This document shows, in pieces, positions 4,318 to 19,303 of a stretch of 64,000 nucleotides of DNA. Position numbers and translations under genes: made by a program. Every line of letters starts with the position of its first letter. The first letter of the stretch is position 1. The DNA comes from Streptomyces caniferus (lineage in GTDB: Bacteria; Actinomycetota; Actinomycetes; Streptomycetales; Streptomycetaceae): positions 62,001 to 126,000 of the forward strand of contig NZ_BLIN01000007.1 in the NCBI RefSeq assembly GCF_009811555.1, in the 5' to 3' direction. The notes beneath the pieces were generated by a model. The model was given only the letters and a program-made list of their open reading frames with translations. It searched no databases and had not been told where the DNA came from.

Positions 4318-6384
4318 TCACCGGGCTCTCTTGTGCTCACGCGTGTCTTCGCGCCGAGGTGCGGGGAGTCCGTCTGCCGGGGGAAGGGCGATTCCGTACT
4401 GGGCGGCCTGCGCTTGGAACATGCCGTGGTAAAGGCCACCGGCGGTCATGAGCTGGTCGTGTGTGCCGTGTTCGGCGATGCGCCCGTCGTCGAGGACGTA
4501 GATGTGGTCGGCGGTGGTGGTCGCGGCGAGACGGTGGGTGATCAGCACGACCCCGGTGCCGTTGCCGGCCATGGACCGCAGGCGCTCGAACGCTTCGATC
4601 TCGGCGTGCGGGTCGAGGGCGGAAGTGGGTTCATCCACCAGGAGGAACGGCGCGTCGCGGTAGCGGCTGCGTGCGTTGCCCAGCTTCTGCCACTGTCCGC
4701 CTGAGAGCTGCACGCCGCGTTCATAGCCCTTGAAGACGATGGAGTCCCATCCGTGCTCCAAGCCCTCGATCAGGTCGCCCACGTCGGCGGCCTGTGCAGC
4801 GGCCTTGACCTGGGCCATGTCCCGTGGGCGGTCCCCGGCACCGACGGCGATGTTCGCGGCGGCCGTCATCTGCCAGTGCGGAAAGTCCTGCGCCAACAGC
4901 CCGATGGAGCCGAAGACCTGGGCCCGGTCGGCCTCGCGTACCTCCACCCGTTCCCCGTTCGCCCCCTCCCACCACAGCTCTCCGTTGCTGGGCAGCAGCA
5001 GCCCGGCCAGGAGCTTGGCCAGCGTGGTCTTGCCGGAGCCGTTCGCGCCCACCAGCGCCGTCACCTCGCCCCGGCGCACGGTGACGCTCACCTCGCGCAG
5101 CGAGGGCGTCGTCGCCCCTGGGTAGATGAAGGAGAGGTCCTGGACCTGAATCGCCCGCACGGGGGAGGGGAGCGGTGCACCCGTCGTCGGGATGGCGTGT
5201 TTCGCTGCCAGCTCGGTGGCTACCTCGGTGTCGCCGAGCTGCAGCATCTCCTCGTACATGCGGTTGACTTGCTGCACGAGGGAGGTGAGCTGGGCGGTGG
5301 AGTTGCGGATCGCGACCACGGCGGTGCCACCGACCGCCAGCGGAAGTCCGCCGCTGGTCAGCAGCCACCACAGCACCCCGTAGCAGCCCAGAGACGCCAC
5401 ACCGGAGAACGCGCCGGCGACGAGGTCCGTGCGAGCCTGGGCCCGGGCCAGGCGCCGCTGCTCGGTTTCCATCAGCCCCGACATCTCGCTGTACCCGCGC
5501 AGCAGCAGCGCGGAGGCCGCGTGCACCCGGATCTCGCCCGCCGCGTGCGGCATCGTCAGGTACTGCAACAGGGTGGACACTGCCCGGCGGTGGTCGACCC
5601 AGTGCAGTCGCGAGATGTATTCGCGCCGGGCGGACCGCACAGCTCCCCAGCCCTTGGGAAGGGCGATGGCCAGCAGCATCGGAAGGAGAGCCCAGTGCAG
5701 CGAGGCCAGCACGACGGCCGCGGCCACCATGCCGATCACGACGCCGGAGGCGCCCACGGACAGGCCGAGCATCCGCCTGGCGGAGTCGGTGCCGAACTTC
5801 CCGGCCTCCAAGTGCCGCTGCACGTCCGGCTGTTCAGTAGCCTCGACCTCCACCCGTGCGAGGGCACGGTAGTACTGGGTGGAGACGGCCCGCTCGACCT
5901 GCGGTTCCAGCCGTCCGGACATCGCTGTCGACCAGGCCGATAGCAGGGCCGTCCCCACGGCGACGACCGCCAGCACCAGCAGCGCAGGCACTGACTGCCG
6001 CAGCTTGTCTCCGGTCGGGCCGTCCGCGAACAACTGGTTGAGCACACCGTTGACGGCCACCAGGCCGAGCGCGGCCGTCACACCCTGTGCGATTTGCGAG
6101 ACCACCAGGCCGATCAGTGCCCTTCGGTCTGCGGTCCATCCGGCCCGTAACACGACACCGACCATGCGCGGCAGCGCTGCGGCCATCTGCCCGAACCGCA
6201 TACGGGCGACCGCACCTTCATGCCCAATGAACGCCTGGTCCCAGCGCAGCCGTCCCCCGAACAGCTCGCGTTCCGCCGCTGAGACGCCGTCCGCGTCTGC
6301 CTGCCGGCGCTTCATGCGGATGCCTCCGTCGCGGTCGCGCCTCACAGCCCGGGCTAAGCGGGTCACATCGATCCGCAGCTTCAT
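4318..6384 (-). CDS. ABC transporter, fused membrane and ATPase domains
   Basis: 688 aa. Residues ~70-375 carry the six-helix exporter membrane domain and residues ~405-650 the ATPase: Walker A GANGSGKT, signature LSGGQ, Walker B FLLVDEP, H-loop ITHRL. This is a type IV half-transporter that would act as a homodimer and resembles exporters of small molecules or peptides. No peptidase C39 domain is visible. The ATG at 6384 overlaps the stop of a 50-aa reading frame (ATGA), so I prefer it to the in-frame GTG at 6396. Cargo is unknown; possible roles are export of the nearby lanthipeptide, which otherwise has no exporter in view, or of a separate product made with the PIMT/Nudix enzymes. Confidence 0.88.
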   Translation of the reverse strand: MKLRIDVTRLARAVRRDRDGGIRMKRRQADADGVSAAERELFGGRLRWDQAFIGHEGAVARMRFGQMAAALPRMVGVVLRAGWTADRRALIGLVVSQIAQGVTAALGLVAVNGVLNQLFADGPTGDKLRQSVPALLVLAVVAVGTALLSAWSTAMSGRLEPQVERAVSTQYYRALARVEVEATEQPDVQRHLEAGKFGTDSARRMLGLSVGASGVVIGMVAAAVVLASLHWALLPMLLAIALPKGWGAVRSARREYISRLHWVDHRRAVSTLLQYLTMPHAAGEIRVHAASALLLRGYSEMSGLMETEQRRLARAQARTDLVAGAFSGVASLGCYGVLWWLLTSGGLPLAVGGTAVVAIRNSTAQLTSLVQQVNRMYEEMLQLGDTEVATELAAKHAIPTTGAPLPSPVRAIQVQDLSFIYPGATTPSLREVSVTVRRGEVTALVGANGSGKTTLAKLLAGLLLPSNGELWWEGANGERVEVREADRAQVFGSIGLLAQDFPHWQMTAAANIAVGAGDRPRDMAQVKAAAQAADVGDLIEGLEHGWDSIVFKGYERGVQLSGGQWQKLGNARSRYRDAPFLLVDEPTSALDPHAEIEAFERLRSMAGNGTGVVLITHRLAATTTADHIYVLDDGRIAEHGTHDQLMTAGGLYHGMFQAQAAQYGIALPPADGLPAPRREDTREHKRAR

Positions 6385-6533
6385 ACCCACCACCACGTAT
6401 CCGGACGGGATGAGTGGAGAGCACGTTGGGAAGAGGCGTCAATCACGTGACTGGGGAGGCCCGCCGCTACGGCCGCGGGCCGCCACCGTTCGAATCGAAT
6501 GGGCTGATGTGCGTCGACCTGCACAGGGTTCAT
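6381..6533 (-). CDS. Possible 50-aa peptide ending PDTWWWV
   Basis: A short frame with ATG at 6533 preceded by GGAGGAG, ending in a TGA that overlaps the ATG of the ABC transporter (ATGA). The peptide starts MNPVQVDAHQ and ends HSSRPDTWWWV; it has no Cys. Third-position GC is only about 65 percent, lower than neighbouring genes, which argues against it. The ribosome-binding site and coupled stop argue for it. It could be a leader frame that couples translation of the exporter, a small precursor peptide, or chance. Confidence 0.35.
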   Translation of the reverse strand: MNPVQVDAHQPIRFERWRPAAVAAGLPSHVIDASSQRALHSSRPDTWWWV

Positions 6534-6821
6534 GGCTCCTCCAGAACGAGCGTTGGTGGGCACAGGCGCTCTAAAGAACGGCCCGTCCTGCTCCCCGTAA
6601 CGGGTGAAGAGGGGGCAGTTAGTGGATGCACGTTCTATTCGGTGGCGGAAGGTGGGCGCGGCTTTGGTTGTGGATGCAGGCCGGCACTCGAACGGTGCGT
6701 TTCACTCCTTCGTGGGCTTGCGTCGCCTTGGTCGATGCAAGTCCGGGAGGGGTGTGCGGGCATCGCCCGGAGGGCAGTGGCGCTGGCGGTGCCGCTGCCC
6801 TGGCGGGCGGGGTGTTTCACG

Positions 6822-8093
6822 TCATGCTCCTGGGTGGCGGTCGTGGGTTGATCTCAAACGGGAGTCGTCATGGGGCAGTCCGTTGGGCGGTGCCGGCCCT
6901 TCGGATGCGGATGATTCGTAGGCGGCGGGTGTGCGGCGCAGGTGGGTGGTGATCGCTTGGCGCAGTGTCGGCCGGACGGATTGTCTGCGGGACGGTCGCA
7001 GAAGACCGCGGAGGTCGACTTCCGCTTTGTCTACGGCCTCAGTGAGGGTCTGCATGTGGGTTGTTGAGAGTTGCCCTGTGCCGAGCCCTGAGGCGGTGAG
7101 CACGGCGCCAAGTTTCTGCATCTGGGTGCTGGTCAGGTGGGGACGGGTTACGGAGTGGTTCAGGACGTCGCGAGCGGAGTAGGCGTCGAGAATGGCCACG
7201 TTCGCCACGGCATCCTGCAGCGGGGGCGTGTGGGGGCTGGTTCGGTCATGGGCCAGATCGAGCGCGGTCAGTCCGGCTCTGGTCTGGAAAGCTGCTGTCG
7301 AGGGGTCGGGCGTAGCTATCAGTGCGGCTGCCCCTTGCAGAGCGAGGTCCAACTCCTGCTGCGGCGCGGGCGAGACCGCGGGCCGGCAGTGGAGACGCAG
7401 GAGGGCCGCGATGGCGTGCTCCCACGGTTCCGTGGGGACGGTGGTGTCGATCGTGTCGCGAGCCTGTTGGTCGAGGCCGCGTTCCATCAGCGCCATGATC
7501 TGGAGTTGGCGGCCGTCGAGGAGGCGTCTTCCGATGCCGCGGTGCTTGGCCATGATGTCGGCGGCCTCGGTCCAGCGGCCGATCCGTGCCAGGGCGCGGG
7601 CGCCGTCGACGAGCACGGTGACCCACAGTTCCTGGCAGACCTTGCGGTGGTTCGCGTCCGTGTCGGTCAGTGCCCACAGGTCGACGGTGCGTCCGTGGAT
7701 CTCGGCTGCCCCGCGCTTCTGGGCGGCGCGGTAGAGGCGGGCAAGGACGTTGTAGGCGGCTTCGCCGTCGCCCTCGCGGGTCAGCAACCGGGAGACATTG
7801 ATAAGGGGCATCAACGACATCACAGCGACATCGCCCGTCAGGCGCCCGGCGGCCGCGAAGACTTGGTGCTGTCTCCAGCACAGGTCGGCTGCCAGGGCGG
7901 GCATCCCTACGTCGGAGGCGATCAGCGCGGCATAGTTGAGGACCCCGCAGGCACGTGCCACCAGGTCGTGGTGGCTCGCGCCTGCGGGTGCGATGGACAG
8001 CGCGTTGAGGTGGGTGATGCGGTCGTCCAGCGGGAGCGCCGGCGCCTTCGAGCGGCAGACCAGAGGGATGCGGCTGGCCATCGCGGGGAGCAT
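6822..8093 (-). CDS. Unknown helical (TPR-like) protein of the lanthipeptide operon
   Basis: 423 aa, alpha-helical throughout, with alanine-rich helix pairs resembling TPR repeats (for example LARIGRWTEAADIMAKHRGI and EAAYNVLARLYRAAQ). There is no helix-turn-helix, catalytic motif, signal peptide or membrane segment. It resembles the C-terminal TPR half of actinobacterial XRE-type regulators, but the DNA-binding domain is absent. The ATG at 8093 lies 4 nt after the stop of the LanB-elimination/PIMT fusion, so it is very probably the last gene of that operon. A scaffold or regulatory role is inference. The C-terminal 40 residues are polar and low complexity. Confidence 0.7.
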   Translation of the reverse strand: MLPAMASRIPLVCRSKAPALPLDDRITHLNALSIAPAGASHHDLVARACGVLNYAALIASDVGMPALAADLCWRQHQVFAAAGRLTGDVAVMSLMPLINVSRLLTREGDGEAAYNVLARLYRAAQKRGAAEIHGRTVDLWALTDTDANHRKVCQELWVTVLVDGARALARIGRWTEAADIMAKHRGIGRRLLDGRQLQIMALMERGLDQQARDTIDTTVPTEPWEHAIAALLRLHCRPAVSPAPQQELDLALQGAAALIATPDPSTAAFQTRAGLTALDLAHDRTSPHTPPLQDAVANVAILDAYSARDVLNHSVTRPHLTSTQMQKLGAVLTASGLGTGQLSTTHMQTLTEAVDKAEVDLRGLLRPSRRQSVRPTLRQAITTHLRRTPAAYESSASEGPAPPNGLPHDDSRLRSTHDRHPGA

Positions 8094-8097
8094 CGGC

Positions 8098-10149
8098 TCA
8101 GCCCTTGCGCGGCCAGTCGACGACGAGACGGCCGTACGTCTTGTCGATGATGAAGCGCGGGTCGGCCGCCGCGAGCTTGTCGCGGGCGTCCCCAACCGCC
8201 ATGCGGAAGGCGGGCTCCGGCCCGGTGTTGCCCCAGCCTGCATCCCAGTCGCGGATCTCGCTCACGACCTGTTCGGCGAGCGCGTCGCCTCGGGAGCCGT
8301 GGCCGAGTACGCCGATCTCCCAGAACCGGCCCTCGTCGTCCTCCCCTTCGCGGATGGTCAGATAGGCCAGGGAGTCGCAGTCGAGCGCGGCCATGGAGCC
8401 CCAGCCGAAGTGCGGGGTGAAGCCGGGGCGAGCGCCGGGCAGGCGCGACAGGCCATTGGGCAGCACACAGGCCAGGTACAGGTACAGCCACTCCCACGGG
8501 TCGCCCTGGCGGAACTTGACGCCGGTGTAGATCTTGGTCTGCGGCTGGTCCAGGACGGTGCGGATCGCGTCGTGGTCCACGTTCTGCTCGCTGAAGGTCT
8601 CCAGCCGGACGTTGCCCTCGCCGGCCATGGGCACGAGGGTGTAGATGTCGTCGCAGACGCCCTTGCGCAGGGGAATGAAGGTGGCCATCTCGCAGGAGAC
8701 GGTCTTCCAGTTGTCGCCGTCCCGCTCGAAGGCAAAGCTCCGGCTGATGCTGCCGCGAATCCGCATGGGCAGGACCAGGCGTCCGCCGGGGGCGAGCTGG
8801 TCGAAGATCTTCACGGGGAGGTCGCCCGCACCGACGGTGAACTGGATGCGGTCGTACGGGGCGTGCTCGGGAAGTCCGGCGGCGCCGTCGGCCAGCATGG
8901 CGGTGACGTTGGTAGCCCCGGCCTGGGCGAGGTTCTTCTGGGCACCTGCGACGAGGTCCTGGTCGACGTCCAGGGTCCACACGTGCCCGCTGGGGCCGAC
9001 GAGCTTGCCCAGCAGGCGGGCGTTGTAGCCGGTGGCGGCTCCGGCCTCCAGGACCTTGTGGCCGGGCTGCGCACCCAACTGTTCGAGCTGGGTGGCGACG
9101 ATGGAGGGCGCGGAGATGCAGGAGATCATCTCGCCGTGCTCGTCGTGCTTGATGGGGACCGCGTCCTCCTTGTACGCCGACTCGATGTCGACGCCGGGCA
9201 GGAACTGGTGGCGGTCGGTGGTACGGAAGGCATCGATGGTGCTGGGGGTGCGCAGGTGGCCGCTGTCGACGAGGCGGTTCGCCAGGGATTCGCGCAGTTC
9301 GGCGGGGTCAGTGACGGCTGTCACGGTGGTCTCCATTCGAGCGAGGTTAGGGTCCGCAAAAGTGGACCGGCGGGTAGACGCGTCAGCGCCTTCCCCTGTG
9401 GAGAAGGCGACTTGGCGGCCCAACCACGCAGTGGCGGCCTGCACGGTGGCAGGCACGCCGGCGCGGTTGAACGCGAAGATCGCGTGATGGGCGAGGACGG
9501 CGCGCAGACCACGTATCAGTCGTCCATCAGCGGCGAGCTGACGCAGGCGACGGCCTGCGTCCTTGAAGGCGGCGACGCGCTCGGCCCAGCCCGGTTCAGC
9601 GTCCGGCCGACGGCCGGCGTCCGCGTTCATCAGACGCCGCATAGCCGAGACTGAGCGGTCGAGCGCGGTCCCGGTGGGCGGAGCGACGGGGGGCCGCAGG
9701 GCGGCGAGCTGGGACCAGACGTCTCCGGCCTCGAACGGGTCCAGGCCGGCTTCGCGAATCATGGCGGACAGCAACATCACGCAGCGCTCGCGGGTGCCGG
9801 GGCTTCCGTTCTCGGGCAGGGCGCTGCGGCTGTCGGCGCAGAACACGTCATGTGCGACGTCCATGCCCTCGGGCCCGCCGAAAGCATCGGTCTCCGGCTC
9901 GTAGACGCCGCCGACCCAACCGGTGGCCTGCTGTTCGGCGACGAGGCTGTCCAGCACGGCGGCAGAGGGGCGCTCGGTGCGCAGCCGCAGCCCTGAGTCC
10001 TTGCGCAGGAAGTGGAAGCGCTGGTCGTGCAGCGCGGCCGACAGGACCTGGGCGGCTTCGGGGCTCACCGAGCCGCCGGGGAAGGCCACACTGGCGTGCC
10101 ACCAGGTCGTGTCCAGGGTGATCGGAAGGTTCTCGTCGTCGAAGTCCAT
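8098..10149 (-). CDS. LanB elimination domain fused to PIMT methyltransferase (FxLD-system type)
   Basis: 683 aa. Residues ~10-245 match the thiopeptide-type/SpaB C-terminal domain, with WWHASVAFPGG at the start, FHFLRKDSGLRLR and the late helix HHAIFAFNRAGV; in class I lanthipeptide dehydratases this domain eliminates glutamate to form Dha/Dhb. Residues ~280-500 are a protein-L-isoaspartate methyltransferase with SAM motif VLEAGAATGYN (~366-376), APYDRIQFTVGAGDLP and QLAPGGRLVLPM. Residues ~500-683 are a C-terminal extension. I recall this arrangement as the 'methyltransferase, FxLD system' family. It supplies the half missing from the neighbouring LanB and would methylate Asp in the precursor core. 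The ATG at 10149 has AAGGAG 10 nt upstream. Confidence 0.9.
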   Translation of the reverse strand: MDFDDENLPITLDTTWWHASVAFPGGSVSPEAAQVLSAALHDQRFHFLRKDSGLRLRTERPSAAVLDSLVAEQQATGWVGGVYEPETDAFGGPEGMDVAHDVFCADSRSALPENGSPGTRERCVMLLSAMIREAGLDPFEAGDVWSQLAALRPPVAPPTGTALDRSVSAMRRLMNADAGRRPDAEPGWAERVAAFKDAGRRLRQLAADGRLIRGLRAVLAHHAIFAFNRAGVPATVQAATAWLGRQVAFSTGEGADASTRRSTFADPNLARMETTVTAVTDPAELRESLANRLVDSGHLRTPSTIDAFRTTDRHQFLPGVDIESAYKEDAVPIKHDEHGEMISCISAPSIVATQLEQLGAQPGHKVLEAGAATGYNARLLGKLVGPSGHVWTLDVDQDLVAGAQKNLAQAGATNVTAMLADGAAGLPEHAPYDRIQFTVGAGDLPVKIFDQLAPGGRLVLPMRIRGSISRSFAFERDGDNWKTVSCEMATFIPLRKGVCDDIYTLVPMAGEGNVRLETFSEQNVDHDAIRTVLDQPQTKIYTGVKFRQGDPWEWLYLYLACVLPNGLSRLPGARPGFTPHFGWGSMAALDCDSLAYLTIREGEDDEGRFWEIGVLGHGSRGDALAEQVVSEIRDWDAGWGNTGPEPAFRMAVGDARDKLAAADPRFIIDKTYGRLVVDWPRKG

Positions 10150-10186
10150 ACGCGTGGGCGCTCCTTGTCGGTGGGATCGGTGCGGG

Positions 10187-11260
10187 TCAGGTGATCAGCA
10201 GAGCGCTGGTCCAGTCCGTGGCGTTCGTGCCGATGAGGGCGAGCTGCGCGCCGCTGCGGCCCTCCATGAAGCCGGGCTTGGGCAGCCGATCGAGGTCTGC
10301 GGCCAGGCGCTGTTGCAGGTCGCCGATCGCGGGGGTGAAACGTTCGGGGGCGGGGCTGTCAGCGGCAACGGCGCGGGCGAGCGTTACCAGACCGGCCCAG
10401 CCGTGGCACAGCGTGGCGTCGGTGATCCGAGCGAGGTGGAAGCGGTCGGTCAGCGTGCGTGCGACGGTGTCCTCTGCAGCATGGCGTCGGACCGGGTCGC
10501 CCAGGGCAAGCGCGGCGAGCTGTTGGGCGCGGGCGATGCCGGGCCGGCCGTAGCACCATGACTGGCGGGCGGTCTCCGGCTCGGGCGGCTCGGCAGCGTC
10601 CAGTTGGGCGCGGGTAGTCCAGTAGCACCCGCCGAACCTGTCCAGCCAGCGCGCGAACACCTCGATCGCCTCGCGCTGCCCCGGCACCTGGACGTCGCGT
10701 CGGGCAGCGAGAGAGAGCACCGTCAGGGGACCGGCGACGCCGTGCGCCATGCCGTTGTTGCCGTGCCCGCCGGCCATCTCCTCACCTGCGGGCCCGACCG
10801 CGGACCACCATCCCGGCAGCTCCCGGCCCGCGATGCGGACCGGCCGTGACAGGGAAACGAGGTAGGCCAGCACGTCCGTCAGCCGGGCGGAGGGTGCTCC
10901 GCGGGTCAGGAGAAGCGCGCCCAGACCGGCCAGGCCGCGGATGAGGTCCCATTCCGCGAGGTTGGGCAGAGCCCCGGACGCCTGTCGTCGCCGTGCTGCG
11001 GCCAGCCGGGCATCCACGACGCGGTCGACGACTCCGCGGACGTGGCGGCCGGCATGCCCGGTGCGGGCAAGCACGAACTCCAGCGCGGGGGCTCCGTGGA
11101 ACAGAGACGCGTTGCCTCCGGCGCTCACGCCGTGTGCGACGGCTTGCGTGAGGTGGCGCCGCACAGTGGACAGGTCGCCGAGCTCGATGTCCAACAACGC
11201 CATCCCAAGAGCGCCCTCGGAGAGATCCTGCGTGCGGGGTGGGAACCCCGTACTCGTCAT
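10187..11260 (-). CDS. LanC-type lanthionine cyclase
   Basis: 357 aa. It has the lanthionine synthetase C signature: HGNNGMAHGVAGPL (~166-179), the zinc ligands Cys236 in SWCYGRPG and Cys285-His286 in LCHGWAGL. LanC proteins add Cys thiols to dehydrated Ser/Thr residues to form (methyl)lanthionine rings in the cytoplasm. The ATG at 11260 overlaps the LanB stop (ATGA), which decides the start. Its length is somewhat short of the ~400 aa usual for free-standing cyclases, but all zinc ligands are present, so it should be active. Its place in the operon, after LanB and before the elimination/PIMT fusion, fits stepwise ring formation on the FGLD precursor. Confidence 0.93.
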   Translation of the reverse strand: MTSTGFPPRTQDLSEGALGMALLDIELGDLSTVRRHLTQAVAHGVSAGGNASLFHGAPALEFVLARTGHAGRHVRGVVDRVVDARLAAARRRQASGALPNLAEWDLIRGLAGLGALLLTRGAPSARLTDVLAYLVSLSRPVRIAGRELPGWWSAVGPAGEEMAGGHGNNGMAHGVAGPLTVLSLAARRDVQVPGQREAIEVFARWLDRFGGCYWTTRAQLDAAEPPEPETARQSWCYGRPGIARAQQLAALALGDPVRRHAAEDTVARTLTDRFHLARITDATLCHGWAGLVTLARAVAADSPAPERFTPAIGDLQQRLAADLDRLPKPGFMEGRSGAQLALIGTNATDWTSALLIT

Positions 11261-13296
11261 GAACGTGCCGCCAGGGGAAGGACGAGGCTGTGGGCCCGGC
11301 CACCGATCCAGCCATCGCCGTCGGGCGGCGGTGCCTCGTGCAGGGTTGCGACGCCGATGGGGCTGGCGTCCAGGTGAGCGCGCAGCAGGTCCAGGTGCAT
11401 GTCCTGGCTCAGATCGAGAGGGAGTTGCTGATCGTCCTCGGCCAGCAGCACGCGCTCCGGCACCCGGAAACGGCCTCGCCAGGCGTGCAGTTGCTCGGCC
11501 CATTCCTCGATAGGTGCGGTACGGCCGGGCAGATCCCGAGTCCGCACCTTCCACCGCGCGGCCGCGAGGATGGAGCGCCGGTAGGTGAGTGCCGGGGTGA
11601 AGGGCAGTGTCCATGCCGCGCCCCAGTCGAACCAGGTCACCTGAGGTGCGGTGGCCCGGCTGATCTCGCCGAGGAACCGAGCCATCGGGGGTGTGTAGTT
11701 GTTCCAGAGGAAGTTGATCGCGGTCGGAGCCAATAGTTCCAGGTGCGTGCCGGTGGCGATCTCAACCAGGCAGGGGCGGCCGTCGCGGACTCTGACAGCC
11801 AGGTCGGAGGGGAACAGCACACCGTCGCCAGGGTGGCGGAACTCGCCGACGCTGACGACCCGGGGCAGCACTCGCGGGGTGCGGGTGAGGAGGTCGGCCG
11901 GGACGCGCCCGGCGTGGAAGGAAAGCTGGGCCAACTCGGCGCCGGGCTCGACCGTGGGCAGATCCGTGTACATCGCCCCCGTATCCGGGAGCAGGTGCCA
12001 GAACCGTCCCGACATCGAGCCGGCCGAGCGGGAGACGGTGACCACGCGGAGCCGAAAGTTTCCTCGCTCCAGAGCCTGGACCGAGCGGGCATGTACCTGA
12101 GCGGCCAATTCGAGGTGAGGCGCGGTGAGGTTGGGCTTTTCCCCGGCCGCTTCCAGCTCCTCGATCACCGCGCCGGTCAGGGCCACGGAGCGGGTGCCTT
12201 CGACCGCTGCGGTTCCGGCCAGCTCCAGCAGGAGCCGGTCGCGTCGGGACATCGGGCGGGGAGGCTCGACCACCTTGACGAACCCGTCGGGGAAGCCCAC
12301 ACCTCTCTCGGGGTCTGTCGCCACCTCCACCGGCACCGCGGTGTGCTCGCCGTAGCGCTCCGTGAACCATTCGACCCAGCGGCGCCAGGCCGGAGCGCCG
12401 TTCGGGTGCGTGGCGAGCCGGGCAAGGACGGTCGCAGCGGTCTCCGCCTCGGTCAGGACTTCCCGCGGCAGCACCACCGTGGCGTCCAGCCGTAAATCGG
12501 TGGCCGCCGAGCGGTCCCGCACCTGCGCGAGCAGAGCGGGCGGTAACGGGTCGGTGGGGTCGATGACGGTGGCGGGTGCGCGCAGCGACGAGCGCAGCAG
12601 CCGCACCCGAAGCAGCTCTCCGAGCAGCTTGACGCGGCTGCGTTCGGAGGTGGCCGGGAACTCGGCGGCGAGCTTGTCCGCCAGGAGTGAGTAGCGGATG
12701 GGGGAGCGCGCTGCGTTGAGGACGAACCTGAGGGCGGGGCTGCTCAGCGCGAGGCGGAACTCGGCCTCGCCCTCGGACGGCACGTAGATGTGTCCCTCGC
12801 GCTGCTGGGCAAGGGTATTGACGCGTACGTCGACGTCGGCCATCCGCGTGCCGTCCGTCTCCCATGCGCTGATCGCCTCATCGAGCGCCACCGGGTCGGG
12901 ACGGGTGACGGCCTGGTGGCGGTGGCCGAAGTGGACCTTCGCCGTGTCGCCGAACTCGATCAGCGTGACGCCGGCGAAGTAGCCGTACGGGGTGGAGCGG
13001 CGCTCGTACCGGATCGCGTATCGGGCCGTGGCCAGTGCCGCCCGGCGCACACGGCGCAGCTTTGGGAACCGGCCGTCTAGGATCCTCTGCACCTGGAGGG
13101 CCAGATCCGGGCTGGCGCTGGACACCGCCTGTCGGAAGGGGCCGTCGCCCCACACTGTGCTCAGCCACGAACGCCACTCTTCAAGCGGGGCCGCTCGCCC
13201 CGGCCAGGACGGCATGGCCGGGGCGGCGAGGTTCACCGCAGCGCGCAGCATCCCTTGCCCGGCACACTGGTACAGGCTGTGTCGCACGCGTGTCAT
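11257..13296 (-). CDS. Class I lanthipeptide dehydratase, glutamylation part (LanB N-terminal)
   Basis: 679 aa, matching the Lant_dehydr_N domain. The RRSTPYGYFAGVTLIEFG segment (~100-117) is the family's R(x)TPxGxFAG motif, and long helical and beta segments follow to WTLPFTPALTYRRSIL. Full-length LanBs are ~1000 aa because they also carry an elimination domain; here that part is on the separate protein at 8098-10149. The enzyme uses glutamyl-tRNA to activate Ser/Thr of the precursor. The ATG at 13296 with GGAG 5 nt upstream is preferred to the GTG at 13302. The gene is downstream of the precursor, separated by a strong hairpin, and overlaps LanC by 4 nt. Confidence 0.92.
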   Translation of the reverse strand: MTRVRHSLYQCAGQGMLRAAVNLAAPAMPSWPGRAAPLEEWRSWLSTVWGDGPFRQAVSSASPDLALQVQRILDGRFPKLRRVRRAALATARYAIRYERRSTPYGYFAGVTLIEFGDTAKVHFGHRHQAVTRPDPVALDEAISAWETDGTRMADVDVRVNTLAQQREGHIYVPSEGEAEFRLALSSPALRFVLNAARSPIRYSLLADKLAAEFPATSERSRVKLLGELLRVRLLRSSLRAPATVIDPTDPLPPALLAQVRDRSAATDLRLDATVVLPREVLTEAETAATVLARLATHPNGAPAWRRWVEWFTERYGEHTAVPVEVATDPERGVGFPDGFVKVVEPPRPMSRRDRLLLELAGTAAVEGTRSVALTGAVIEELEAAGEKPNLTAPHLELAAQVHARSVQALERGNFRLRVVTVSRSAGSMSGRFWHLLPDTGAMYTDLPTVEPGAELAQLSFHAGRVPADLLTRTPRVLPRVVSVGEFRHPGDGVLFPSDLAVRVRDGRPCLVEIATGTHLELLAPTAINFLWNNYTPPMARFLGEISRATAPQVTWFDWGAAWTLPFTPALTYRRSILAAARWKVRTRDLPGRTAPIEEWAEQLHAWRGRFRVPERVLLAEDDQQLPLDLSQDMHLDLLRAHLDASPIGVATLHEAPPPDGDGWIGGRAHSLVLPLAARS

Positions 13297-13321
13297 CACC
13301 ACTCCGTTCTTGGTAGGCGGG

Positions 13322-13358
13322 GTGCTGGCCGGACGGGCAGGTCCAGTCCGGCCAGCAC
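13322..13358 (-). terminator. Hairpin between precursor and LanB (attenuator)
   Basis: A perfect 12-bp stem, GTGCTGGCCGGA (13322-13333) with TCCGGCCAGCAC (13347-13358), around a 13-nt loop. It starts 17 bp past the precursor stop and lies 25 bp before the LanB start. In many lanthipeptide operons a leaky terminator here keeps precursor mRNA in excess over enzyme mRNA; that function is inferred. Confidence 0.75.
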
Positions 13359-13375
13359 TGCCGAGCTGTCCCGGC

Positions 13376-13564
13376 TTACGAGGTGGTGCAGGCGCTGGGA
13401 CAGGAGCTGCCGCAGGTGTCGCCCGTGGTGCACATCAGGACCGTCTCGCTCGCCGGCGTGCCCTCGATGAAGGCGATGTCGAGCCCGAACGGGTCGACAT
13501 CGTCGAGGATGTCGAGGGTCGGCTGCACGGGAGCGACCGGCTTCTCTGTGTGAACGGCGGTCAT
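13376..13564 (-). CDS. FxLD-family lanthipeptide precursor
   Basis: 62 aa, ATG at 13564 with AAGGAGG 5 nt upstream. The leader carries DPFGLDIAFIEG (24-35), the FxLD motif at 26-29, the counterpart of the FNLD box that LanB enzymes bind. The C-terminal core is rich in Ser/Thr/Cys: MCTTGDTCGSSCPSACTTS (44-62), with Cys45, 51, 55 and 59. Up to four (methyl)lanthionine rings could form. Asp49 is the only Asp in the core and lies between Cys45 and Cys51, so it is the natural target for the PIMT enzyme, giving an ester, succinimide or isoaspartate. The leader protease and cleavage site are not identifiable here. The 388-bp upstream gap suggests its own promoter. Confidence 0.93.
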   Translation of the reverse strand: MTAVHTEKPVAPVQPTLDILDDVDPFGLDIAFIEGTPASETVLMCTTGDTCGSSCPSACTTS

Positions 13565-13952
13565 GCTTGCCTCCTTGGTAGTGGCTGAATGTGCAAGGTG
13601 CCTGGACCCGACCGGGCCCAGGAGCTTTGGCGCACAACTGCGCGAACCGGCAGGACGGCCTTCGGAGTTCGGCTGAAGGACAGTCCCGGAAGTCACTGCT
13701 GCTCTTTCCTCTCTTCAGGCCAGGCGTGTGGGGAGGAGCCAGTGGAGGGGAACTCCTCCCCGCACACTTCGTCCGGCACCGAGCCCTGGCGCGGGTCCGG
13801 CTGCCGGGTGGTGCACCCGCCCACCAATCGGACCGTCACGCACCGACGGCGGCGGGCGGTCTGTGGTCACGGGCCTACGGACAGGGCCTCGGTGGCGCGG
13901 CGGAACCAGTCTTCGGGCAGGCCGGTGCGCTGAGGCGTCTCTTGCTTCGCGT
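13565..13952 (-). other. Upstream region of the lanthipeptide precursor
   Basis: 388 bp between the DUF6415-like gene and the precursor, both on the minus strand. I see no convincing open frame. Besides the AAGGAGG site at the precursor start there is no clear promoter consensus, but the length suggests the promoter of the precursor-LanB-LanC unit is here. Confidence 0.4.
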
Positions 13953-14402
13953 TCAAACGGTGCCCTCGTCGGCTGGGGCAGGGGCGGCGCTGCCGGTGCC
14001 ACGGAGCAGGGCTTGGATCAGGCGCGCGAGGTTCTGCGCTCTGTGGGCGGCCCCGCGCTCCGAACAGCCAGGAGGCGGCATGTAGAGACGCCGGGCGGCT
14101 TCGCTGAGCGTCGCCTGCGGCCCGCAGCGGAGATCCGAGTCGGCCGGCAACCGGCGGCACACAGCGGCGAGCTCGCCTTCGAGGACTCGCCCATAGGCGG
14201 TGAACGCCTTCACCAGGTCCAGGCTGACGTCGACCTCCGGCAGGCTTCCGCGGTTCAGGTCCCAACTGAGGACCGTCTCGACGAGCGGCAGCATCGCGGC
14301 CTTGTCGGGGACCACCCGGGTCAGGGCAGTCACGTGACCACCTGTTTTGTGCGCCCCCACGGCATTCCTCGGGACTCGAGTCCCCGACAGCGTCGCGCTC
14401 AT
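13953..14402 (-). CDS. DUF6415-like protein
   Basis: 149 aa, helical and cytoplasmic. The central part (LEGELAAVCRRLPADSDLR, then SEAARRLY, then a RAQNLARLIQALL helix) follows the layout I remember for the DUF6415 'natural product biosynthesis protein' family: a helix with the pattern LRGHxxLLxPEVE, then EARR(K/R)L, then HARRLARxLNAL. No catalytic motif is visible. The ATG at 14402 overlaps the oxygenase stop (ATGA), so the two are co-translated. The job of DUF6415 proteins is unknown; their frequent occurrence next to RiPP genes suggests an accessory role, and the family assignment here is by resemblance only. Confidence 0.65.
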   Translation of the reverse strand: MSATLSGTRVPRNAVGAHKTGGHVTALTRVVPDKAAMLPLVETVLSWDLNRGSLPEVDVSLDLVKAFTAYGRVLEGELAAVCRRLPADSDLRCGPQATLSEAARRLYMPPPGCSERGAAHRAQNLARLIQALLRGTGSAAPAPADEGTV

Positions 14403-15190
14403 GACATGGCCTCCACACGCGCGGGGGGCTGGGGTGCGTACAGGGCAGGCGCGAAACCGTGACCGAGGTCGAAGCGCGGGTTGCCCAGGGCCCGCCAGTG
14501 CACGCGGTCACCGACAAATGCTGTACGGGCGTGCAGCCATCGCTCGTTGTCGAGGAGATATCCCTGGCCCGGCTTCAGGGGAAGGGGCTGTTGGTAGCGA
14601 AGAGCTGCCGCCTTGAGGTCGGGCAGGTGCGGCTGGACCATGGGGCTCCATCGGGCGAGAGCATCGAACCGCAGCCGTATGGCCATCCGTCCGCCGCTGT
14701 GAGGGCTGAGGACCTGGGCGGCATGTCCGTCTCCGGCGCCGAAGTACGCCGTCCTCGGCAGGGACAGGGCATCAGCAGCTTCACCACCTTTGTGATGCAG
14801 CAAGTCGGCGTGCACGCTACGTCCGTCGGTGAGCAGGCATTCGCCTCCTCGGTCGGCGGGCTGGGCGCAGACCAGCAGCATCAGACGCGGAGGATGGGGG
14901 AGGCCGGACCGTTCCGTATGTGGGTCGAGCTCTCCGTTGCCAAGGCCGGCGAACCCGGGCCGGCCGGCGTGGCGCGGGGTGTCGCGGATGGTGGTCAGCC
15001 CATCGGAGTCACTGTCGCGGTGCACGGAGATGGTCATGATGCGGGAGGCGAAGGCCCGTACCGCGTCGCGAGTGGCGAGCCCGGCGACAGTGACCAGACC
15101 ATCCTTGCTCAGTTGCTCGGCGATCTGGGCCGATGCGCCCGGGGCTTTGTGATTGAGGAAGTGCGCTGCAAACAGATCACCGGGGCGCAT
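14399..15190 (-). CDS. Fe(II)/2-oxoglutarate oxygenase, TauD/clavaminate synthase type
   Basis: 263 aa with the jelly-roll oxygenase facial triad: His91-x-Glu93 in LDPHTERSG and distal His220 in LLDNERWLHART, with Arg229 placed to bind 2-oxoglutarate. HxE rather than HxD is typical of clavaminate synthase and AsnO-like amino-acid beta-hydroxylases. The AQPADRGGECLLTDGR segment also fits that group. It would hydroxylate or oxidise an aliphatic carbon using O2. ATG 15190 has AAGGAG upstream. It is the first gene of the leftward lanthipeptide operon and is coupled to the DUF6415-like gene. A role in hydroxylating a residue of the lanthipeptide core, such as Asp49, is inference. Confidence 0.85.
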   Translation of the reverse strand: MRPGDLFAAHFLNHKAPGASAQIAEQLSKDGLVTVAGLATRDAVRAFASRIMTISVHRDSDSDGLTTIRDTPRHAGRPGFAGLGNGELDPHTERSGLPHPPRLMLLVCAQPADRGGECLLTDGRSVHADLLHHKGGEAADALSLPRTAYFGAGDGHAAQVLSPHSGGRMAIRLRFDALARWSPMVQPHLPDLKAAALRYQQPLPLKPGQGYLLDNERWLHARTAFVGDRVHWRALGNPRFDLGHGFAPALYAPQPPARVEAMS

Positions 15191-15358
15191 CGTGTGACTC
15201 CTTCGTCGGCGGTCAGTGGCTTCACTGTCGAGATCGGAGGCGCAGAAGGTAAAGCGACTGATTGTCGACTCCGGCAAATCACCCAAGAGCAGTGAGCGTT
15301 GAACGCACCGTGCTACGGTCCGAACACTCCGGCACTGCCCTGCACTGCGAGGAAACTC
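15191..15358. promoter_or_regulatory. Divergent intergenic region between oxygenase and Nudix genes
   Basis: 168 bp separate the leftward lanthipeptide operon from the rightward Nudix-XRE pair. It must hold promoters for both directions and is AT-richer than its surroundings around 15250-15300. No convincing -10/-35 pair or operator palindrome could be picked by eye. The adjacent XRE regulator is a plausible controller. Confidence 0.45.
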
Positions 15359-15778
15359 ATGACGTACACGCCCCCCACCTGGCCCGTTTCCGTCAAAGGT
15401 GTCGCCCTGGATGTGCGCGGCCGGGTGCTGCTGCTGAAGAATGAGCGTGAGGAGTGGGAGCTGCCCGGCGGCCGGCTGGAGGCAGCAGACCCAAGCCCCG
15501 AGTGCACGGTCGAGCGCGAACTGCAGGAAGAGTCCGGCTGGATGGTCAAGGCGGGGCCGCTGCTGGACACCTGGATCTACCAGCCGCTTCCGCAGACCCA
15601 CCCCGAACGACGCGTCGTGATCATCACCTACGGCTGCACGGTCCTCACACCGGAAGCGGACCCGGTGGTCAGCCACGAGCACAAGCAGATCGGAGTGTTC
15701 ACCGCAGCCGAGGTCCCGGGACTCACCATGCCCGAGGGCTACAAGCAGTCCATCGCCACCTGGTACGGGCGGATGTAA
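15359..15778 (+). CDS. Nudix hydrolase
   Basis: 139 aa, single Nudix domain with box GGRLEAADPSPECTVERELQ followed by EESGW (about residues 38-62). It hydrolyses a nucleotide-linked substrate that cannot be predicted. The ATG at 15359 has GAGG 6 nt upstream; an in-frame TTG 60 nt earlier is less likely. The stop lies 6 nt before the XRE regulator, so the two are one transcript, divergent from the lanthipeptide operon. With the methyltransferase-Nudix fusion and the triple Nudix, this locus holds five Nudix domains in 16 kb. Confidence 0.85.
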   Translation: MTYTPPTWPVSVKGVALDVRGRVLLLKNEREEWELPGGRLEAADPSPECTVERELQEESGWMVKAGPLLDTWIYQPLPQTHPERRVVIITYGCTVLTPEADPVVSHEHKQIGVFTAAEVPGLTMPEGYKQSIATWYGRM

Positions 15779-15784
15779 CAGGCA

Positions 15785-16957
15785 GTGGCCGCCCCCGAAC
15801 GTCTGCCGGCGTCCCGTCCCTCGGCCCAGCATGTGGTGTGGCACTGGGCCACCCCGCAGGCCCGCACCATCCTGAACAGCGGCGATCTCGGCGCGATCCT
15901 GCGCTTCCACCGAACCGTCCACGGCCTGAACCAGACCGAGCTGGGAAACCTTCTCGGCTACGACAAGACCTACATCTCGGCCCTCGAACTCCGAAAGAAG
16001 ACCCTGGGCGACGTCGGCTCCCTGCGCCGCGTCGCCGAGCAACTGCGACTGCCCCCGCACATCCTGGGCGTCACCGATCCGGCTGACACCGATCACCGGG
16101 CAATGGTCCAGTTCGGACAATCCACGGTCCGCCTCGCCGAGATCGCCCGCCAGAGCGGTCACGCCTCCGAAGCCGTCGCCGAACTGTGGCCGCTGGTCGC
16201 CCGCCTCGAAGCGCGCCTCGCAGACGGGCACGCCGAACGCGAGGTCCTGCGCCTGCTCGCCCACGCCCGGGTCGGCCTCGGCGTCGCGCTCGGAAACGTT
16301 CTTCCCGAGGAGCGACTGGCCACCGCCGCCCACTGGACCGCCAAGAGCCTGAGCATCGCCGCCCACTTCAACGATCCCACCTTCAGCAGCTACGCCCTGC
16401 GCATGCACGGAAACGAACTGCGCAAGGCCCACATCCGGGGCGCCGCGGTGGACCGGCTGCGCCACGCAGCGGCCCTGGCGCCGGACCGCGAAACCCGTGC
16501 GGAGGTACTGCCGCTGTTGGCCCGAGCCGCAGGCGAACTCGGCGATGCCCAGCTCTTCGACAGCGTGATGCAAGAAGCCGACGGTCTGATCGAAAGCGCA
16601 GGACACACGTCGCTCTTCAACCCTTACGCGCTGCACGAGATCCGCCTGCGCGGCCTCGTGAGCACGGGGCGCGCGGACGTCGCCATACGGCTGGTCGACC
16701 ATGGACCTGGCTCGACGACGACCGTCGCACCGCAATGGAGAGTGATCGAACTGATCACTGTCGCCCACGTACGGCTCCTTGCGAACGACCGGGGCGGGGC
16801 GACCGAATCGCTGAACACCGCGATGACCGAGGCAGTAGTTCAGCGGCTGCCCCACCAGTTGCAACGGATCGTACGGACCGCCGGCGACCGGCTTCCCGAC
16901 GTGCGCGGCCAGGCGGTTCAGGCGCTCGACCGGATACGGCAGGAAATGGCGGCCTAG
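15785..16957 (+). CDS. XRE-family regulator with C-terminal TPR region
   Basis: 390 aa. Residues ~33-95 form an XRE helix-turn-helix (LGAILRFHRTVHGLNQTELG, then LLGYDKTYISALE, then LRRVAEQLRLPPHILG). The rest is a helical TPR-like array with no other motif, the layout of many Streptomyces regulators in which the C-terminal array senses a ligand or partner. The GTG start at 15785 follows the Nudix stop by 6 nt. Its helical half resembles the free helical protein at 6822-8093. It is likely to control the divergent lanthipeptide operon; this is inferred from position. Confidence 0.85.
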   Translation: MAAPERLPASRPSAQHVVWHWATPQARTILNSGDLGAILRFHRTVHGLNQTELGNLLGYDKTYISALELRKKTLGDVGSLRRVAEQLRLPPHILGVTDPADTDHRAMVQFGQSTVRLAEIARQSGHASEAVAELWPLVARLEARLADGHAEREVLRLLAHARVGLGVALGNVLPEERLATAAHWTAKSLSIAAHFNDPTFSSYALRMHGNELRKAHIRGAAVDRLRHAAALAPDRETRAEVLPLLARAAGELGDAQLFDSVMQEADGLIESAGHTSLFNPYALHEIRLRGLVSTGRADVAIRLVDHGPGSTTTVAPQWRVIELITVAHVRLLANDRGGATESLNTAMTEAVVQRLPHQLQRIVRTAGDRLPDVRGQAVQALDRIRQEMAA

Positions 16958-16965
16958 CACTGAGG

Positions 16966-17430
16966 TCAGCGCAGCCATTCGATCACCTGACCAGCGGTGA
17001 GGATTTGGTACTGCCACGCCCGCGTGATGGCGTGAGCGCGGTTCCGCGCGCGCAGGTTCATCAGCAGCTCGCGGCCGTCCCGGCGGATGCTGCAGACCTC
17101 CCGCTTCAAAGCTGTGGCCATCTGCGCCGCCGTCATCTCCTGGGCGATGAGGGGCACGAGTGCACACTGTTCGCGGGACAGGTATAGCAACTCGGGATCC
17201 AACAGCTGAGGCCGGTCGATGGCCTTGGTGGCGTAGGTGACGGCGAGTGCAGCAGCCGACTCGCTCACGCCGTACAGCTTCCACTTGGCGAGCTTGAGGT
17301 AACCCGAAGCTGTGCCCTCCCGGATCTGGAGGCGCAGCGCAACCGCGGCGAGCATGCTGCCGTCGGCCAGGCCCTCGAGGACATGCCGCTCCCTGGGCGC
17401 GAGGATGACCTCCGCTACGCTCGTGGGCAT
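16966..17430 (-). CDS. Double LuxR-type HTH protein
   Basis: 154 aa. Residues ~9-60 look like a LuxR/GerE DNA-binding domain (LAPRERHVLEGLADGSMLAA, then LQIREGTASGYLKLAKWKLY). Residues ~78-135 look like a second, weaker copy beginning LSREQCALVPLIAQEMTAAQ. There is no receiver or ligand domain. The ATG at 17430 shares a base with the stop of the DUF5999 gene (TGATG), so they are translationally coupled. It probably regulates transcription; targets unknown. It converges with the XRE gene, 8 bp away. Confidence 0.65.
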   Translation of the reverse strand: MPTSVAEVILAPRERHVLEGLADGSMLAAVALRLQIREGTASGYLKLAKWKLYGVSESAAALAVTYATKAIDRPQLLDPELLYLSREQCALVPLIAQEMTAAQMATALKREVCSIRRDGRELLMNLRARNRAHAITRAWQYQILTAGQVIEWLR

Positions 17431-17624
17431 CAGGCCGCCGCCTTCGCCCGGCACCGCGCCGGGGCGATGACCTGTCCGTCCGGCAGCAGCTCACCGGTGT
17501 CCTCGAAGAGCAGGACGCCGTTGCACAGCAGGCTCCAGCCCTGTTCCGGGTGGTGCGCCACCAGGTGCGCGGCCTCCCGATCAGTAGCGTCGGGCGACGG
17601 GCACGGTGGCTGATGCTGGCACAT
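17430..17624 (-). CDS. DUF5999 family protein
   Basis: 64 aa. The sequence MCQHQPPCPSP, then DREAARLV-like DREAAHLVAHHPEQGWSLLC and VLLFEDTGELLPDG matches my memory of the widespread Streptomyces DUF5999 family. Two N-terminal cysteines and a third in WSLLCNG might bind metal. ATG 17624 has GGAG 7 nt upstream. It is coupled to the LuxR-type gene. Function unknown. Confidence 0.85.
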   Translation of the reverse strand: MCQHQPPCPSPDATDREAAHLVAHHPEQGWSLLCNGVLLFEDTGELLPDGQVIAPARCRAKAAA

Positions 17625-17838
17625 CGGATAACTCCAAATCGGGGTTGTGGTTACGCCGTTGTGTTGTCGCTGCGGGCCGGCCCGCTTCAGGGCAGGTAGT
17701 GGCGGGTCGGCCCGCAGCGCCGGGCACCCAGGGGTAGGGGTGCCGGTCTGGTCCCTCGCGAGTGCCGGCCATTCGACGGCACGCGGAGGAGTCGAGGCGT
17801 CGATTCCGCCGGCGGCGACGAGGGGCCTCTGACCGTCG

Positions 17839-18768
17839 TCATGCGACGCCCGCGTCCTGGGGGGTGTGCGCCTCCTGGCGGAGGATGTCCGCGAGCCGGT
17901 CTCCGTCGAGTCGGGCACGGACGATGTGGTGATCCGACATGTCCAGCGGAACCTCGATCACGTCGACATCCGACACCGCGGGCAGGAGTACCTCCGAGGC
18001 GTAGATGCGGTCGATGCGCGCGTCCGGCCCGTGCGTCTCACAGCCGGTGACCGTTCGAGCCAGGGAGTGGGTGTTGCCGCTGCGAGAGGCGACGTGGCGT
18101 GCCACGTCTTCCAGCCCTGCGGTGCGCAGGGTCTCGTCCGAGCAGGTGCACATCCGCCTGGTCCCGTCAGGACCGATACAGGAGCGATGGACCCGGTGTC
18201 GCCGGTCACGGATCTCTTCCAGGACCGGCAGCGGAAGATCCCCATCCGCGCCGGGTACGGGGTAGGAGTTGTGGTCTCCGCCCATCAGCACGGGCAGTTT
18301 GACGTCCATCCCGGTGGGGGTGGTCCACGTCTTGTCGGCGAAGGTTGTCGCCCAGTCCGCTTCGGCGTGCCGTTGCGTCGGGGAGGCGTAGTTGTGGTGG
18401 TAGGAGGCGCAGACCAGGGGTACCGCGTCAGGTCCTGCGGGACGGAATCGCAGGCCCCGGACGGTCGGTGGCATCTTCCAGATGGTCTCTTCATCCCTGT
18501 CCGGCCACCCGCACACGGGGCTGAACAGAGACGTGGCGGCAAAGACGGCGGTATGGGAGGAGGGCCCCAGCCAGCCACGCAGGGCCAAGTCCTCCTCCAT
18601 GGACTCCATCACGGCCTTGCCCTTGGCATCGGCTCCCCACATCTCCTGCCGAAAGAGCAGGTCCGGATGGAGTGAAGCGAGGAGCCGGTTGGCCTCCTTG
18701 CGCTTGTTGGAGTCAGCGCCGCCGTTGGCCTCGAAGTTCCAGCAGAGCAGGGTGATGCTGCGGCTCAT
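17839..18768 (-). CDS. Endonuclease/exonuclease/phosphatase-fold hydrolase
   Basis: 309 aa, EEP superfamily. The metal and catalytic residues are visible: CWNFEANGG at the start (Asn12), RQEMWGAD (Glu), MGGDHNSYP (Asp and Asn) and the C-terminal SDHHIVRARL (Asp-His). The family includes DNases, phosphodiesterases and inositol phosphatases; the substrate cannot be told. There is no signal peptide, so it is likely to be cytoplasmic. It sits at the downstream end of the long minus-strand gene chain from the conservon, 37 bp after the unknown 165-aa gene, and precedes DUF5999 by 214 bp. Confidence 0.82.
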   Translation of the reverse strand: MSRSITLLCWNFEANGGADSNKRKEANRLLASLHPDLLFRQEMWGADAKGKAVMESMEEDLALRGWLGPSSHTAVFAATSLFSPVCGWPDRDEETIWKMPPTVRGLRFRPAGPDAVPLVCASYHHNYASPTQRHAEADWATTFADKTWTTPTGMDVKLPVLMGGDHNSYPVPGADGDLPLPVLEEIRDRRHRVHRSCIGPDGTRRMCTCSDETLRTAGLEDVARHVASRSGNTHSLARTVTGCETHGPDARIDRIYASEVLLPAVSDVDVIEVPLDMSDHHIVRARLDGDRLADILRQEAHTPQDAGVA

Positions 18769-18805
18769 GCGATCAGTGATCCTTTCGTGGATTCGGGCAG
18801 ATGAG

Positions 18806-19303
18806 TCAGACGTCCGTCTCGGTGGTGGCGAGGGCGAGGAAGCCGCGGCGGGCGTGGATCTGCCGGAGGACGTCCTCGTAATCGCCGTTGAGGTCGGAGA
18901 GGTCGGTCCGGGACATCGCGGCGATGCCGTCTATGTCGTCGTGGTCGAGGGCATCCAGCAGGCGGGCCAGCTGAGGTCGAGTGACGGGGGCGGTCAACCC
19001 CGTGAAGTCCACGGCCGGAGCCCGCTCCAGGAGCCAGTTGTTCCGAACGGCCATGCCGCGGGCTACGGCTAGCCGCAGGGCAGGGTCCTGGTGCGCGTGC
19101 ACCATGGTGTAGATGCCGATGCGGGGGCGTGGCGTACGGCTGATGGCCGCGGCAAGGGCGGCTTCGCGTATCGCCTGGAGTTCGGCGGTGGACTTTGGGG
19201 GGCGGATGCAGCGGGGGACCAGTCTGGCCAGGACGGTCTCGATCTGTGTCGGGTCGTGGTGGGTGGGGGGTGCTGTCGCTGTGGTGTACCGGTCTGTGGT
19301 CAC
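18806..19303 (-). CDS. Hypothetical protein
   Basis: 165 aa, not recognised. It starts at a GTG at 19303 (AAAGGGA upstream). It is helical, with a basic N-terminal half (LARLVPRCIRPP, then AISRTPRPRIGIYTMVHAHQ) and an acidic C-terminal half (LLDALDHDDIDG, DLSDLNGDYEDVLRQIHARR). There is no membrane segment or catalytic motif. It lies 82 bp after the 50-aa gene and 37 bp before the EEP hydrolase, so is probably part of the same transcript. Function unknown. Confidence 0.6.
   Translation of the reverse strand: MTTDRYTTATAPPTHHDPTQIETVLARLVPRCIRPPKSTAELQAIREAALAAAISRTPRPRIGIYTMVHAHQDPALRLAVARGMAVRNNWLLERAPAVDFTGLTAPVTRPQLARLLDALDHDDIDGIAAMSRTDLSDLNGDYEDVLRQIHARRGFLALATTETDV

Follow-up and report, generated by a model that had tools for sequence, protein, structure and literature searches.

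How can a lanthipeptide precursor be dehydrated when the LanB encoded beside it carries no lyase of its own? The question is raised by a set of FxLD-type lanthipeptide genes, all on the minus strand, in a 64,000-nucleotide stretch of the Streptomyces caniferus genome (contig NZ_BLIN01000007.1, positions 62,001 to 126,000), which as a whole we call the window. Here LanB consists of a glutamyl-transfer domain only, and a glutamyl lyase (GL) domain is found instead on a separate protein, joined to a methyltransferase of the PIMT type. We consider it likely, at a probability of roughly 0.65, that the locus encodes a class I pathway of the kind known from the coi and olv clusters that has become a split-LanB system, in which a syn-type GL would perform the elimination and the peptide would acquire four rings and a modified Asp. 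What can be read directly from the window and its relatives is gene content, domain boundaries, catalytic-residue signatures and conservation.

A LanB lacking a lyase domain and its distribution

The genes that bear on the question are the following.

13376..13564, minus strand: LanA precursor, 62 amino acids, with an FGLD leader motif, four Cys and one core Asp (TIGR04363, 52.9 bits; cut-off 30)
11257..13302, minus strand: LanB with the glutamyl-transfer domain only (PF04738, 513 bits), 681 amino acids from GTG 13302 or 679 from ATG 13296
10187..11260, minus strand: LanC cyclase, 357 amino acids (PF05147, 94.2 bits)
8098..10149, minus strand: GL-PIMT fusion, a GL half and a PIMT half in one frame of 683 amino acids
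9379..10149, minus strand: N-terminal GL half of the fusion (PF14028 over residues 42-240; TIGR03891, 105.1 bits, cut-off 48.45)
8098..9303, minus strand: C-terminal PIMT half of the fusion, of the Asp O-methyltransferase type (PCMT over residues 287-496; TIGR04364, 414.6 bits, cut-off 320)

A LanB glutamylation domain, a GL, a LanC and a Cys-rich precursor, the components of a class I lanthipeptide system, therefore occur in one locus, and precursor and methyltransferase both exceed the curated cut-offs of the NCBIfam FxLD lanthipeptide system. In profile searches LanB gave no PF14028 match, no TIGR03891 match and 0 NCBIfam matches, and the PIMT half bears the C-terminal extension typical of PIMTs associated with ribosomally synthesized and post-translationally modified peptides (RiPPs). 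The original prediction, made from the letters of the window, had listed the FGLD four-Cys precursor, a LanB without an elimination domain, LanC, the GL-PIMT fusion, an oxygenase and a DUF6415 gene; all are present, and the hidden Markov model searches that it proposed as a check matched the LanB, GL, LanC and PIMT families (PF04738, PF14028, PF05147 and PCMT).

The arrangement is not peculiar to this genome. A scan of genome contigs gave 46 loci, and stretches fetched around hits were typed with local profiles; after seven that repeat a contig were dropped, 117 distinct loci (numbered with the prefix L) were available. A fused GL with a truncated LanB occurs in 36 of these, window included; a fused GL accompanies a full LanB in 26, and a stand-alone GL accompanies a full LanB in 32. 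A further 4 combine a stand-alone GL with a LanB typed as truncated: L040, L047 and L052 are of the window's type but interrupted, and L131 is distant, with a long LanB whose end matches neither GL profile. The remainder have a GL with no LanB in the stretch (15 loci) or no syn-GL (4 loci). A further eight distinct loci with a truncated LanB, found outside the genus, elsewhere in the family and in other families of the class, bring the total to 44; L176 repeats L035, and in L169 LanB is split into two pieces. Two additional loci, L182 and L183, also have a truncated LanB, with fusions 42 and 46% identical to that of the window.

Lengths separate the two forms of LanB. The protein spans 678-693 amino acids in 33 of the 36 fused/truncated loci, the outliers being 643 (L071, two pieces), 472 (L034, partial) and 406 (L025, two pieces), and 929-1042 amino acids in 56 of 58 full-length loci, the other two being partial (375 and 384). 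Across 200 genomes of the same genus, 65 hold a GL relative at E ≤ 1e-6; the window's type is present in 10 of these, the window among them, where the match covers most of the domain and identity is 73-100%; one more genome (G143) gave just a 58-residue match at 74%. The fusion was matched over its full length at no less than 65% identity in 8 of 200 genomes of the family and 6 of 393 of the class, the window being counted in both. In the S. caniferus genome itself PF14028 matches twice, in the window's fusion and in a full-length LanB on another contig. Because the LanB of the locus has no GL, the fused GL is, as far as domain content can tell, the sole eliminase of the locus.

Character and history of the fused lyase, and the precursor it would act on

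To type the lyase we aligned 122 syn-type GLs (profile score >100, at least 200 residues) with 65 LanB C-termini. An alignment of the NisB chain with CoiB of L049 served to place the NisB residues, and CoiSA numbering was anchored on the L049 orthologue, in which K46, R51, R53 and E89 fall at their published numbers. The corresponding residues of the window's GL half are Lys50, Arg55, Arg57, Glu86, Ala89 and Ala220, and they include three published markers of syn-GLs: Lys50 (CoiSA K46) and Ala at both the NisB R826 and the NisB H961 sites. Lys fills the CoiSA-K46 column in 121 of 122 syn-type GLs (L074 has Gln) versus 0 of 65 LanB C-termini; Arg fills the NisB-R826 column in 2 of 122 (L120 and L121) versus 63 of 65; and His fills the NisB-H961 column in 0 of 122 versus 64 of 65. 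The Lys, both Arg and the Glu are kept in all 50 truncated-type rows (duplicates included). By this signature the fused GL of the window is of the syn type. H222 was considered as a catalytic His and dropped, the H961 column being occupied by Ala220. A structure prediction for the whole fusion (21 alignment rows) had a mean predicted local distance difference test score of 64.6, with residues 44-59, including Lys50, below 50; it backs the PIMT fold and was given no weight for the GL active site, the GL half being hardly probed and no solved LanB being among the 50 matches listed. The GL-PIMT fusions of L120 (8787-10862) and L121 (8662-10743) combine the syn-type Lys with Arg at the NisB R826 site and may possibly represent an intermediate type of GL.

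The order in which the arrangement arose was approached through trees, all built by a quick method. In the LanB trees the truncated type forms one clade (SH-like approximate likelihood ratio test support, 100), and most of the outgroup LanBs are full length (L139, L140 and L185; L131 is long but unmatched, and L020b is clipped by the contig end), which makes loss of the GL from LanB the simple reading. However, the stem of the truncated clade is long, and in one LanB tree the full-length ingroup forms a group of its own (support 89), so that the LanB trees alone do not place the truncated type inside the full-length LanBs. In a tree of the fusions rooted on stand-alone PIMTs, lineages with a full LanB split off before the truncated type, namely L120/L121 (support 100), L184 (95) and L179-L181 (81), L179 being labelled full by default, with no LanB in its stretch. 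As the full-LanB lineages branch first, the fusion probably preceded the loss; the trees thus suggest that GL and PIMT were joined first and that LanB then lost its GL. L182 and L183 may represent a separate loss (tree supports, 29 and 53). Six coi-type or stand-alone-GL clusters (L041, L043, L048, L049, L101 and L102) contain an additional orphan PIMT, lacking a GL half, that clusters with the window's type; these orphans are possible remnants of replaced cassettes.

The C-terminal part of the window's LanA reads ETVLMC-TTGDTC-GSSC-PSAC-TTS, and a search that required an F-x-[LMIV]-[DE] motif and the Cys pattern, and hence reached precursors of that shape, recovered 43 distinct truncated-type precursors, window included, from 41 of the 44 truncated-type loci and from L047 and L052; no precursor fitting the motif was found in L025, L034 or L170. 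All 43 cores contain four Cys; Thr stands four residues ahead of the first and of the second Cys, Asp two residues before the second, and Ser immediately ahead of the third, the position of CoiA1 Thr50; the equivalent of Thr43 is identical in all 43. The extra N-terminal Cys is found in 43/43 truncated-type versus 0/35 full-type precursors. Of 35 full-type precursors (4 non-fitting precursors excluded), 28 have Thr at the Thr50 position and 7 have Ser, and the second truncated group (L182 and L183) has Ser in 2/2. The L182/L183 core joins a coi-like LTDDGC start to a GSSCPSACTTS end.

For coi, the authors of that work inferred an anti-GL role at Thr43 and Thr50 and a syn-GL role at Thr57 (PMC9486935). 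The family lacking the anti-GL therefore has Ser, the Dha (dehydroalanine) of which has no E/Z form, at one of the two presumed anti-GL positions and retains Thr at the other. A strict tie between Ser at this position and absence of the LanB GL was rejected, since the 7 full-type precursors also have Ser, and with only one or two origins of the truncated type the association would be a correlation, not independent proof.

Genes flanking the cassette

Three further genes on the same strand adjoin those listed above.

6822..8093, minus strand: TPR-like protein (TPR matches sub-threshold only), beginning 4 bases past the GL-PIMT gene
13953..14402, minus strand: DUF6415 protein (PF19979, 36.6 bits; cut-off 27.5)
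14399..15190, minus strand: TauD-type Fe/2OG (iron/2-oxoglutarate) oxygenase (PF02668, 72.8 bits; cut-off 27)

The original prediction described the genes as running in one direction with overlaps; the single strand holds, but only the LanB/LanC and TauD/DUF6415 pairs overlap, by 4 bases each, and gaps of 388 bases (DUF6415 to LanA), about 79 (LanA to LanB, from the ATG) and 37 (LanC to GL-PIMT) lie elsewhere. Its gene set was right as listed and one gene short, the TPR-like gene having been left out. Homologues of this gene occur in 42 of the 46 loci L009-L054 and in all nine truncated-type loci L169-L177, and those that adjoin the coi-type loci L041 and L048-L050 are 36-38% identical. The gene is the fifth of the conserved cassette and, paired through gene order, a probable counterpart of CoiH. 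Scans against PHROGs gave no match for the TPR-like and DUF6415 proteins, and window positions 1-20000 gave no Rfam match at the gathering threshold.

The oxygenase and the DUF6415 protein might also be pathway genes, in which case the product would be hydroxylated as well. They share the strand of the cassette, and DUF6415 ends 388 bases ahead of LanA. However, the fetched stretches around the 46 loci L009-L054 yielded no homologue of either at E ≤ 1e-5. The oxygenase belongs to a divergent oxygenase/NUDIX/XRE trio (window 14399-16957): among the 200 genomes, 11 others carry TauD relatives (E ≤ 1e-20), in every case with the NUDIX and XRE genes of the trio no more than 3.5 kb away, and in 9 of these 11 the fetched stretch holds no LanB or LanC, the remaining 2 having both. 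A second, shorter TauD copy in the S. caniferus genome (L155) stands without the module. Several observations favor a pathway role: the module adjoins lanthipeptide genes in L144 and L145, with a 42%-identical DUF6415 homologue near the oxygenase in L145; a PIMT gene lies in the stretch of the module in L154; and in genome G087 some 17 kb separate the module from a cassette like the window's. On balance such a role is rather unlikely. The oxygenase probably belongs to the separate module, outside the pathway, and this DUF6415 protein is probably not a pathway gene.

Other genes are found close by. Window positions 1409-6396 encode a PIMT-like protein (TIGR04188, 198.5 bits, below the cut-off of 380), a three-NUDIX protein and an ABC (ATP-binding cassette) transporter; at the 46 related loci, relatives of the ABC protein occur in 28 and of the three-NUDIX protein in 21. 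A methyltransferase-NUDIX-PIMT fusion (TIGR04364, 372.4 bits; cut-off 320) at L055 14377-16890, minus strand, reaches into window 1-890; it has no GL match, and no F-x-L-D precursor was found in L055. At L055 7913-9169, plus strand, is a radical SAM (S-adenosylmethionine) maturase of the AmcB cyclophane family (NF041718, 503.8 bits; cut-off 425), possibly marking a further RiPP locus nearby.

Predicted product, rival explanations and known systems

In the pathway that we propose, LanB would attach glutamate from Glu-tRNA to Ser and Thr, and the fused syn-GL would remove it, giving (E)-Dhb (dehydrobutyrine) from Thr and Dha from Ser. LanC would then close four rings: Thr of ETVLMC to its Cys, Thr of TGDTC to its Cys, Ser of GSSC to Cys of PSAC, and the C-terminal Thr of CTTS to Cys of GSSC. 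Finally the PIMT half would methylate the Asp of TGDTC, leading to aspartimide and isoaspartate (isoAsp). These steps are modelled on characterized systems, the ring pattern on coi and olv, the stereochemistry on CoiSA and SptBb, and the placing of PIMT after cyclization on OlvSA (PMC13001092). The Asp modification is predicted from the PIMT domain and from an Asp invariant in 43/43 precursors. The expected product would have one lanthionine (Lan), three allo-methyllanthionines (allo-MeLan) and a beta-linked Asp (isoAsp or aspartimide). For the GluC fragment TVLMCTTGDTCGSSCPSACTTS the computed mass is 2124.81 unmodified, 2052.77 after four dehydrations and 2034.76 with aspartimide; a methyl ester adds 14.02.

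The LanC of the window keeps the SWCYG, LCHG and HGNNGMAHG stretches in the alignment, of which we take SWCYG and LCHG to supply the likely Zn ligands, and parts are missing at the N terminus and internally. For LanCs of this kind the matched stretch is shorter, at a median of 368 in 43 rows versus 411 in 59, with duplicates included and starts uncurated. If every Thr-derived ring comes from (E)-Dhb, only allo-type MeLan would be present, and the Asp-bearing ring would be L-allo-L-MeLan, next to isoAsp, should LanC keep the LL-MeLan facial preference of coi; we regard this more specific forecast as a long shot. This fourth MeLan diastereomer was unreported as of 2022, according to PMC9011353.

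Several points weigh against the pathway that we propose. With (E)-Dhb at all three Thr positions, CoiC left some rings unclosed (PMC9486935), so the window's LanC would have to differ, and CoiSA processed Ser poorly at position 57 (T57S), whereas the predicted Lan needs the window's GL to act on Ser. The 122 syn-type GLs were picked by profile score, with weak relatives (score <100, e.g., L131-L138) outside the counts, and R55 is no strict marker, being Arg in just 15 of 31 fused rows with a full LanB. One of the 43 truncated-type precursors, that of L071, has Gly in place of the C-terminal Thr, which the other 42 keep. Further, trans action by the full-length LanB on the other contig is conceivable in principle.

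That last point leads to the possibility that the locus works exactly as coi does, with a trans-acting full-length LanB performing anti elimination at some Thr and the fused GL acting on the last Thr only. A suitable protein exists (C3:976620-979556; PF04738, 577.6 bits; PF14028, 184.4 bits), and CoiC needed (Z)-Dhb at two positions (PMC9486935). However, this LanB (L140) is on another contig and adjoins a LanC of its own, and the truncated cassette recurs across several genera and families, each of which would need such a helper; we find the explanation distinctly unlikely. Still less probable is that LanB eliminates unaided and the fused domain performs another step, as raised for extra elimination-like domains by Walker et al. 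2020; homology to the thiopeptide cycloaddition enzyme is noted in PMC7268733. The window LanB has no GL domain at all, the fusion retains Lys, both Arg and Glu in every truncated-type row, and eliminase activity has been demonstrated for CoiSA(ED): with the CoiB lyase inactivated it eliminated at all three Thr, and the K46A change impaired it, glutamylated peptide accumulating (PMC9486935, PMC9011353). That the cassette is decaying and makes nothing is hardly credible, despite related loci with LanB in pieces (L025, L040, L047, L052, L071 and L169), given that the window genes are intact and that dozens of loci share their lengths, residues and precursor core.

With split-LanB syn elimination as our preferred reading, the locus can be set among known systems. 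PIMT homologues are reported as the commonest auxiliary enzyme of class I clusters (PMC13001092), and additional elimination domains as "often fused" to them (PMC7268733). Among studied systems the nearest is coi of Streptomyces coelicolor A3(2) (CoiA/B/C/SA/H), whose CoiSA is a GL-PIMT fusion with a syn-type GL and leads to D-allo-L-MeLan (PMC9486935, PMC9011353). Shared with the window are an FxLD-type leader (FDLD in the L049 orthologues), LanC, a syn-GL fused to PIMT, a probable CoiH-like gene, the core Asp and the ring-donor spacing for three rings. However, CoiB is full length with its own anti-GL, unlike the LanB of the window and of the other loci among the 36, and CoiA1 has Thr50 and Asn where the window family has Ser and the extra Cys. 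The olv system of S. olivaceus (OlvA/B/C/SA) resembles the window in a PIMT acting on the core Asp and in the Cys for an extra N-terminal ring, but OlvSA has no fused GL and OlvB is a canonical dehydratase (PMC13001092, PMC9486935). SapT (SptBa, SptBb and SptC; PMC9011353) and dmxorosin (PMC11855644) share the split LanB and match the predicted set of one Lan with three MeLan; the GL of SapT, SptBb, is of the syn type, as the window's appears to be, and the window resembles the SapT type in having, by sequence, glutamylation and syn-type elimination domains on separate proteins and a single GL in the locus. There, in contrast, the GL is a separate protein, and the portions of these two papers cited here describe no PIMT.

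The expectation of an uncharacterized product has therefore to be narrowed. A glutamylation-only LanB, an elimination domain fused to PIMT and a probable aspartimide or isoAsp all stand, but the kind of pathway is already published as coi/CoiSA, and the pairing of thioether rings with a modified Asp is already seen in olv; what is predicted to be new is the ring stereochemistry. Two elimination domains are said to occur "in almost all cases" (PMC9011353), a wording that implies that exceptions were already known to exist. The NCBIfam families TIGR04363 and TIGR04364 match the window but, having no coverage of LanB, cannot tell a split from a full-length LanB. In the literature that we searched, no description was found of a GL-PIMT fusion accompanied by a GL-less LanB, although supplements of the cited papers may mention one. 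The window thus represents a conserved arrangement that combines two published ones and is apparently undescribed as such.

The authors of PMC9486935 ask how gain or loss of a GL parted olv from coi and steered ring stereochemistry. The window family adds a third state, in which the fused syn-GL is kept, the anti-GL of LanB is absent, and Ser occupies one presumed anti-GL Thr position. By analogy with OlvSA, the fusion would join two steps, elimination and Asp methylation, between which LanC acts, and the predicted rings would be of the rare mirror form, which makes the stereochemical prediction a sharp one.

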